Assembly: GCA_014384025.1 (NCBI GenBank)
Contig: JACNGQ010000079.1
Location: 1-33,711 of the forward strand
Direction: 5' to 3'
From: Planctomycetota bacterium
Lineage (GTDB): Bacteria > Planctomycetota > Phycisphaerae > Sedimentisphaerales > Anaerobacaceae
DNA: 33,711 nt
The position numbers and the translations under genes were made by a program. Shown piece by piece: positions 30,578-32,415 of this stretch. Within the stretch, counting starts at the first letter, position 1. Each line of letters opens with the position of its first letter. Below the pieces are notes generated by a model that saw only the letters and a program-made list of their open reading frames with translations, was not told the DNA's origin and did no database searches.

Positions 30578-32143
30578 TCAAAGTTCCACTTTTACTTCCG
30601 TCTCCGGGCCTTTATTCTGTGCCGAGACCATTTTGTTGATGGCATCGATATAAGCCTTCGCACTGCTTTCGATGATATCTGTCGAAATACCCCGGCCGAT
30701 GAAGGTCCTGCCGTCCTCTGTAATGCTGACGGTCGCTTCGCCGAGCGCTTCTTTGCCGCTTGTGACAGCTCTGATCGAATAATTTTCGAGCTTAGGCGAT
30801 AGACCCGTAGCTTCCCTTATAGCCTCATAAGCCGCATCCACCGGCCCGTCACCGCAGGCCGCCGCCTGCCGGGTTTCGTCTTTCGTCTTAATCTTGACGC
30901 TCGCGGTCGGCAGCGTACCGGTCCCGCAGGCCACGTGCAGATACTCCAGCTTGTAAATCTGCTCGACAATGCGGATTTCGTCGTTGATTAACACTGTTAA
31001 ATCTTCGTCGAAGACCTCTTTTTTCTTATCGGCTATCTCCAGAAATCTTTCGTACGCGTGTTCGATTTCCTGCCTGGTGAGCTTGAAGCCGAGTTGCTTG
31101 CATCTATCGACAAATCCGTGCCGGCCGGTATGCCTGCCTAGGACCATTCGCGAGCCGCCCAGCCCGATGCTCTCGGGCGTCATAATCTCATACGTCGTGC
31201 GCTCCTTCAAAACTCCATCGACATGTACTCCAGCTTCGTGAGCGAAGGCGTTGGCACCGACTATGGCCTTGTTCGGCTGAATGACAAAACCTGTAAGCCG
31301 CGAAACCATACGACTGGTGCGACAGATTTCCTTCGTATTGATATTAGTGGACAAACCGCCCGTAGTTAGCGATACAAAAAAGTCCGCTCTCGTGCGGATG
31401 CCCATAGCTATTTCCTCGAGCGCTGCGTTACCCGCCCTTTCGCCAAGGCCGTTCACCGTGCATTCGACCTGGCGGGCGCCATTTCGCACGCCGGCTAATG
31501 AATTCGCCACCGCCATCCCCAGATCGTTGTGGCAGTGCGTGCTTATAATGCATTTGTCTATGCCGGGCACGTCAGATTTGAGCTTCGCGATGATTTTGCC
31601 GTATTCGTACGGCAAAATATAGCCGACGGTGTCGGGTATATTCAGCGTCGTCGCTCCGGCTTCTATAACCGCCGCTAATACTTCAATCAGAAATGGCATC
31701 TCGCTCCTGCACGCGTCTTCCGGCGAGAATTCTACGTCATCGACGAAATTCTTCGCACACTGCACAGCGGCGACCGCCATTTTCAGGACCTCATCCGGCT
31801 TCTTTTTGAGCTTGTGCTCCATGTGGACTGGCGAGGTGGCGATAAATGTGTGTATTCGCTTGTTTTTGGCCGGGGCTACCGCCTTTCCGGCCGCCTCGAT
31901 ATCACCTTCGTTCGCACGGGCAAGGCCGGCTATCACCGGGCCTCGGACCTGCTCTGCAATGAGGCGGGTCGCATCGAACTGGGCCGGACTGGATACTGGA
32001 AAGCCCGCTTCGATGATGTCAACGCCCAAAATCTTCAATTGCTGGGCTATTTCGAGCTTTTCAGCTATCGAAAGAGAAGCGCCAGGCGACTGCTCGCCGT
32101 CCCGTAAGGTGGTGTCGAAAATTAATACTTTTTCTTCGGACAT
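30578..32143 (-). CDS. leuA: 2-isopropylmalate synthase
   Basis: 521 residues. Condenses acetyl-CoA with 2-oxoisovalerate, the committed step of leucine synthesis. N-terminal TIM barrel with LIFDTTLRDGEQSPG (metal and substrate site), STHCHNDLGMAVAN (His ligands) and VNGLGERAGNAALEE; the linker and C-terminal regulatory domain (from about residue 390, with GDGPVDAAYEAI and ISTDIIESSAKAYIDA) is present, so leucine feedback is likely. Start set at ATG 32143 with TTGGAG 9 bases upstream; the longer frame would begin at the TTG that overlaps this site. A 236-base leader with a Leu-rich ORF precedes the gene. Confidence 0.94.
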   Translation of the reverse strand: MSEEKVLIFDTTLRDGEQSPGASLSIAEKLEIAQQLKILGVDIIEAGFPVSSPAQFDATRLIAEQVRGPVIAGLARANEGDIEAAGKAVAPAKNKRIHTFIATSPVHMEHKLKKKPDEVLKMAVAAVQCAKNFVDDVEFSPEDACRSEMPFLIEVLAAVIEAGATTLNIPDTVGYILPYEYGKIIAKLKSDVPGIDKCIISTHCHNDLGMAVANSLAGVRNGARQVECTVNGLGERAGNAALEEIAMGIRTRADFFVSLTTGGLSTNINTKEICRTSRMVSRLTGFVIQPNKAIVGANAFAHEAGVHVDGVLKERTTYEIMTPESIGLGGSRMVLGRHTGRHGFVDRCKQLGFKLTRQEIEHAYERFLEIADKKKEVFDEDLTVLINDEIRIVEQIYKLEYLHVACGTGTLPTASVKIKTKDETRQAAACGDGPVDAAYEAIREATGLSPKLENYSIRAVTSGKEALGEATVSITEDGRTFIGRGISTDIIESSAKAYIDAINKMVSAQNKGPETEVKVEL

Positions 32144-32295
32144 CTGCTTTTTCTCCAAATTTTCTTATTGCTGACTAAAGCCAAATTATGCCCCAGACAG
32201 CGTAAAATTGCCACGAATTATTTATTTTAACGCATAATCCGAGCGGTTTGTGGTTAAAAACGAATGATTATAATAGATTTTTGTTGGGGGTATAT

Positions 32296-32379
32296 TTATT
32301 GCGCCTTGCGGCGCAGTAGCAGCAGGCTAAGGCTGATTGCCGTAGCAAAAGAAGAACGATTTATGCAAACTCTATTCAT
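32296..32379 (-). CDS. Candidate leucine leader peptide upstream of leuA
   Basis: A 27-codon ORF (MNRVCINRSSFATAI, then SLSLLLLRRKAQ, stop TAA) lies 152 bases before leuA. Five of six consecutive codons from CTT to CTG are Leu (CTT AGC CTG CTG CTA CTG), unlike nearby sequence. This is the hallmark of ribosome-mediated control of leu genes, as in enteric leuL. Its ATG begins 8 bases after a near-perfect -10, so the mRNA may be leaderless. A hairpin starts within the last Leu codon. A classical terminator between it and leuA was not found, so the mechanism is open. The frame extends upstream to 32550 without good support. Confidence 0.55.
   Translation of the reverse strand: MNRVCINRSSFATAISLSLLLLRRKAQ
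32300..32315 (-). promoter_or_regulatory. GNRA-type hairpin after the Leu codon run
   Basis: On the - strand TGCGCC-GCAA-GGCGCA forms a perfect 6-bp stem with a GCAA tetraloop. It begins in the last Leu codon of the leader ORF and ends one codon before its stop codon. A ribosome stalled on the Leu codons would block its folding. No T-run follows. Confidence 0.5.
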
Positions 32380-32386
32380 AGACATT

Positions 32387-32415
32387 ATTATATATCGGAT
32401 ATATCCTTTTGTAAA
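32387..32415 (-). promoter_or_regulatory. Sigma-70-type promoter for the leuA leader
   Basis: Read on the - strand: TTTACA (32415-32410), a 17-base spacer, and TATAAT (32392-32387). This is 5 of 6 and 6 of 6 to consensus. The expected start point (about 32380-32379) falls on the ATG of the Leu-rich leader ORF. Upstream 32416-32494 separates it from the zinc-ribbon membrane protein gene; nothing else is seen there, and the rest of the leader (32144-32295) holds only an imperfect hairpin at 32200-32233. Confidence 0.7.

Follow-up and report, generated by a model that had tools for sequence, protein, structure and literature searches.

A leucine-run leader peptide probably regulates leuA in a planctomycete order that seems to have lost the leuA terminator of its sister orders

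We propose that the 2-isopropylmalate synthase gene leuA in the order Sedimentisphaerales (Planctomycetota; Phycisphaerae) is governed by a leucine-sensing leader peptide, with Rho-dependent termination as the favoured output, and consider this explanation, taken as a whole, to be probable. That the leader senses leucine is inferred with high confidence. The comparison of relatives supports a translated run of Leu codons, a constrained promoter spacing, two hairpins (P1 and P2), a G-poor tract behind them, the loss of the terminator in the order and its presence in sister orders. What appears to be new is that the terminator has been lost across the order and the sensor retained. In the literature searched, most subscription papers being outside its reach, no account of a planctomycete leu leader was found.

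The leader ORF and its leucine codons

The window is the whole stretch of DNA analysed, comprising 33,711 nucleotides of contig JACNGQ010000079.1. In it, leuA occupies 30578..32143 of the minus strand (relatives 50-87% identical) behind a Shine-Dalgarno (SD) motif, GGAG, read from the sequence (32153..32156, minus strand). It is followed on the same strand by leuC (30539-29277) and leuD (27141-26656), both named from their own sequences and probably also under the control of the leader. The two are separated by an ORF for a PhoD-like phosphatase/phosphodiesterase in the same orientation (28610-27201). Rfam covariance models of any family, the Leu leader models included, gave no matches at gathering score in the window.

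Upstream of leuA, a leader ORF of 27 codons (MNRVCINRSSFATAISLSLLLLRRKAQ; 32296..32379, minus strand), closed by TAA (32298-32296), enters a run of four Leu codons, CTG CTG CTA CTG (32314..32325, minus strand), which are the proposed sensor codons; a further Leu codon, CTT, stands ahead of them at 32331. A sequence-only reading of this DNA had described a promoter, an ATG, this 27-codon ORF with its Leu codons and a hairpin on the minus strand, and all are found at the places it gave. We compared leuA upstream regions from 61 genomes of the genus, family and order of the window and from three named planctomycete MAG contigs (L007-L009); 53 leaders were picked with the P2 pattern, and the counts therefore describe that set and not all genomes.

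In all 53 leaders a short ORF enters a run of Leu codons whose last member opens hairpin P2, and the reading frame of P2 relative to the ORF is identical throughout. The sequence-only reading had made its proposal depend on conservation of these codons in relatives, and the three codons before P2 do specify Leu in 48, 47 and 53 of the 53 leaders. The third bases of the codons vary freely (at position -1, CTA 16, CTG 9, CTT 8, CTC 7, TTG 4 and TTA 3), so that Leu is conserved while synonymous codons are exchanged. Conservation of the leader spans about 45 genera of the order and Leu-rich leader ORFs stand before leuA in other orders of the class as well, which supports the earlier claim of an attenuation-type leucine leader peptide in a planctomycete. 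Among leuA genes of other phyla, by contrast, a short upstream ORF with four Leu in six codons was present in only 4 of 42. Two members of one genus of the order (L163 and L164) and a further one (L126) have no Leu leader before leuA.

A covariance model built from P1, the Leu region and P2 (R1) gave a single strong hit in each genome, at leuA, through most of the order; in the rest of the class and phylum its hits were weak or absent. Viral contigs scanned with the pattern returned 57 raw matches. One contig labelled Gammaproteobacteria (L045:903-1060) has a leader ending in LSTLLLR*, a TGCGC..GCGCA hairpin and a G-poor tract before leuA, and no terminator there.

A conserved small protein with a function of its own, and no regulator, might also be kept across many genera, as these peptides are. 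However, their length ranges from 18 to 51 aa, their N-termini are divergent, and the only constant part is the Leu run with the Arg/Ala residues forced by P2; the leader is moreover always at leuA, with a single R1 match in most genomes. We regard such a protein as very improbable. Within the leader ORF, the motif ACAATTYGTTC (peptide T-I-R/C-S) at about +16 to +27 (about 32364-32353 in the window) is conserved in many genera.

A promoter at leaderless distance

Promoter A (32387..32415, minus strand) consists of TTTACA (32415-32410), a 17-nt spacer and TATAAT (32392-32387), matches the consensus at 11 of 12 positions and is kept in relatives. The leader ATG at 32379 (minus strand) lies 7 nt past the -10 box, and a second, in-frame ATG is found at 32385. 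Sigma-70 matches in the region number 4 against 4.2 expected, so that promoter A alone is not above expectation and the case for it rests on the relatives. There, TTGCAA or TTTACA, 16-17 nt and TATAAT are the usual boxes before the leader ATG, and an in-frame ATG 6-9 nt (mode 7) past the -10 of a promoter with at least 9 of 12 matches was observed in 35 of 53 leaders, while shuffled upstream sequence gave a mean of 5 and a maximum of 8. From this spacing and sigma-70 geometry we infer that the leader mRNA is leaderless, with its 5' end at or adjoining the AUG. The Leu run, the frame and the -10-to-ATG spacing are all kept order-wide.

Two hairpins and a G-poor tract

The leader of the window folds into exactly two hairpins. 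P1 (32326..32346, minus strand) lies 5' of the Leu region and extends into it. Over the 53 leaders its sequence varies, but RNA at this site folds more stably than dinucleotide shuffles do (mean MFE z = -5.2); this shuffle test was used instead of pair counts from alignment A2, which are uninformative with columns poorly in register. P2 (TGCGCC-GCAA-GGCGCA; 32300..32315, minus strand) belongs to the MFE structure of the window and begins inside the last Leu codon. It is near-invariant as TGCGCC..GGCGCA in 47 leaders and takes the form TAGCCC..GGGCTA in the other 6, the latter group supplying compensatory changes at three pairs. No covariation was detected inside P2 within the TGCGCC group alone, because the hairpin is invariant there. 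In L118, L125, L142 and L151 the loop of P2 contains an insertion of a similar palindromic repeat of about 40 nt (CTGCCCCCGCG..CGGCGGGC), which leaves the leader ORF open.

Behind P2 the window contains a C/A-rich, unstructured tract (32262..32299, minus strand; 38 nt without G, MFE 0 kcal/mol), which is the proposed loading site for Rho. Across the 53 leaders, G makes up 1-5% and C 22-35% of the first 20 nt past P2, and G returns gradually beyond 40 nt. The longest stretch free of G past P2 measures 27 nt, where the background median is 13 nt, and C minus G over the first 40 nt has its median at the 96th percentile of the leader's own locus. Regular spacing of C, a crude sign of Rho sites, occurs in 24 of 53 leaders against 26% of background windows, a modest enrichment. 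Full-length Rho is encoded in all 14 genomes searched, that of the window (G000) among them. A shorter second Rho-like protein of about 380 aa occurs besides it at G000:C47:32969-34069 and in several relatives.

Loss of the leuA terminator in one order

A scan for hairpins with a U-tract between P2 and leuA identified an intrinsic terminator in none of the 53 leaders of the order, whereas the identical scan, run on the DNA before leuA in other families of the class, found one in 16 of 17 cases. The absence of a visible U-tract terminator, seen by the sequence-only reading in the window, thus extends over the order's leaders. In the sister orders a leader ORF rich in Leu mostly precedes the terminator. 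Many of these ORFs have a promoter spaced for a leaderless start, and often a GGG-containing segment past the ORF stop is able to pair with the 5' arm of the terminator. In two leaders from other orders (L206 and L209), a P2-like hairpin (TACGCC..GGCGTA in L209) occurs alongside an antiterminator and a terminator, which suggests that P2 may descend from the first hairpin of a classical attenuator.

The notion that the order simply does without U-tract terminators is rejected on two grounds, their genome-wide excess (29 sites in 200 kb, where 8.8 are expected) and the attenuators at trpE. In the genome of the window, a Trp-run leader, MKQINRKNTRYWWWPEG, and a normal intrinsic terminator come before trpE (L301, G000:C258:13100-14100). 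The same combination is present in relatives (L298, L300, L302 and L303), and the trpE leaders are apparently leaderless too. A quick look at ilvB upstream regions showed no clear branched-chain leader. Since the order has no terminator at leuA, the sister orders have one and the order uses terminators elsewhere, it would seem to have kept the leucine sensor of the attenuator and replaced the output stage. A more detailed history, in which the leaderless ORF and first hairpin of an ancestral leucine attenuator were kept, terminator and antiterminator were deleted, and a Rho-loading tract evolved along with a second promoter-like element, is put forward tentatively, its chances being clearly less than even.

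A second promoter-like element

This second element, B (TGGCAA-17-CATAAT; 32185..32213, minus strand), can be aligned gap-free across 40 of the order's genomes, with the consensus TRGCAA-17-CATAAT, a fixed spacer of 17 nt and extra conserved bases. It lies about 65-80 nt past P2, and farther where repeats have been inserted. Among six genomes searched, the strict consensus occurs once in four and is absent in two, every occurrence being at leuA. A weak inverted repeat lies in its spacer (z = -2.6); several species lack the repeat or have one of less than 1 kcal/mol. Element B may, because of the repeat, be something other than a plain promoter. It resembles a second promoter and might give rise to leuA mRNAs without the leader, which is the chief reservation here, because a bypass promoter would limit the control exerted by the leader.

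Element B might even be the working leuA promoter, in which case the unit of promoter A would be separate, acting in trans through a leaderless small RNA or peptide or by transcription interference on B. The gapless alignment and fixed spacer of element B, the likeness of its TRGCAA box to the TTGCAA of promoter A, its restriction to leuA where the exact consensus is present and the tolerance of repeat insertions between P2 and B all fit this arrangement. The inverted repeat in the spacer speaks against a plain promoter, however, and the sister-order terminators, located at leuA and mostly behind a Leu-rich leader ORF, speak against a separate unit, as does the pattern, typical of a cis leader, in which conservation is confined to Leu codons, hairpins and frame while length and N-terminus vary. 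We therefore judge this arrangement unlikely.

A non-canonical intrinsic terminator, formed by P2 or by an element B hairpin followed by TAAT and lacking a normal U-tract, seems less likely still. The P2 stem is very stable and invariant, many species have the inverted repeat in element B, and a U-rich stretch occurs 30-40 nt past P2, but the RNA directly after P2 is rich in A and C rather than U. The faintness of the B repeat in several species and the normal U-tract terminators that the order has elsewhere argue against it too, and a translating or stalled ribosome would cover P2.

The output of the leader

We looked for pairings that could serve as a replacement output. Complementarity of the leuA SD region was not above shuffles, either with the Leu region (z = +1.0) or with the G-poor tract (z = +1.2), and no conserved downstream partner for the 3' arm of P2 was found against shuffles (z = +0.85). 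These null results remove both the base stem of the actinobacterial LEU element and a classical antiterminator, and the two candidates were dropped. They also bear on translational control of the kind proposed for the LEU element, in which the leuA SD would be sequestered by the Leu run or by RNA close to it and freed by stalling. Actinobacterial leuA leaders are very alike in being leaderless, with a Leu run and no terminator (PMC8079986), and the LLLLRR peptide motif recurs in the leuA leader of C. diphtheriae (PMC5784534). Against this stand the SD complementarity, no higher than in shuffles, and the variable distance between leader and leuA, about 93 to 288 nt among relatives, and we hold translational control to be distinctly improbable. 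The sequence-only reading had offered Rho, translation coupling or an uncommon structure as outputs; none of them is proven, and neither SD sequestration nor alternative pairing of P2 rose above shuffles.

Among the outputs left, Rho-dependent termination at the G-poor tract is the one favoured, at odds somewhat short of even. The Rho step, with stalling protecting the transcript from Rho, is graded no higher because spaced C is modestly enriched and no RNA switch that would protect the tract on stalling was found.

Under the proposed leucine-sensing regulation, transcription from promoter A would yield an mRNA beginning at or beside the leader AUG, and a ribosome would translate the short ORF while RNA polymerase moves on downstream. 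With ample charged tRNA-Leu, the ribosome would pass the Leu run, reach the stop in or just past P2 and depart; P1 and P2 would then close, leaving the G-poor, C/A-rich RNA behind the polymerase bare. Rho would most likely load on the bare tract and end transcription ahead of leuA. Under a shortage of charged tRNA-Leu, stalling at the Leu codons would leave the ribosome covering P1 together with the 5' arm of P2, and transcription would continue into leuA.

Relation to known leaders and evolutionary meaning

The arrangement shares features with three kinds of leader. Like the classical leu and trp attenuators, it has a leader peptide with control codons, a promoter directly upstream and a hairpin at the control codons, but the order has neither the antiterminator nor the U-tract terminator (0/53) of those systems. 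Like the Rho-dependent leader attenuators of the tnaC and mgtL type (tna is cited in PMC1262725), it has a short ORF followed by an unstructured stretch with C in excess of G and no intrinsic terminator; unlike in these, no switch structure for the tract was found, and Rho dependence is here a proposal from sequence. The signal in systems of the tnaC and mgtL type is free Trp or Mg/Pro, whereas here it would be charged tRNA-Leu.

The third kind is the LEU element of Actinobacteria (Seliverstov et al. 2005, PMC1262725), where the base stem is formed by the Leu run paired with the nearby leuA SD; LeuL1 of S. lividans is leaderless (PMC8079986). Both types place a leaderless Leu-run peptide before leuA without an intrinsic terminator. 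In the planctomycetes, however, pairing of the Leu run with the SD is not above chance, leuA is 93-288 nt away, and P2 opens in the last Leu codon and is followed by the G-poor tract.

One planctomycete class thus shows both states, a leuA terminator being present in the sister orders and missing throughout one order, and offers a natural before-and-after comparison of an attenuator whose output stage was apparently replaced while the sensor was kept. If the proposal is true, the order would possess an amino-acid attenuator that depends on Rho and has charged tRNA as its signal. In Actinobacteria, leuA leaders lacking a terminator have been on record since at least 2005, and no mechanism for them is agreed (PMC1262725); the planctomycete leader would then be a possible model for them.
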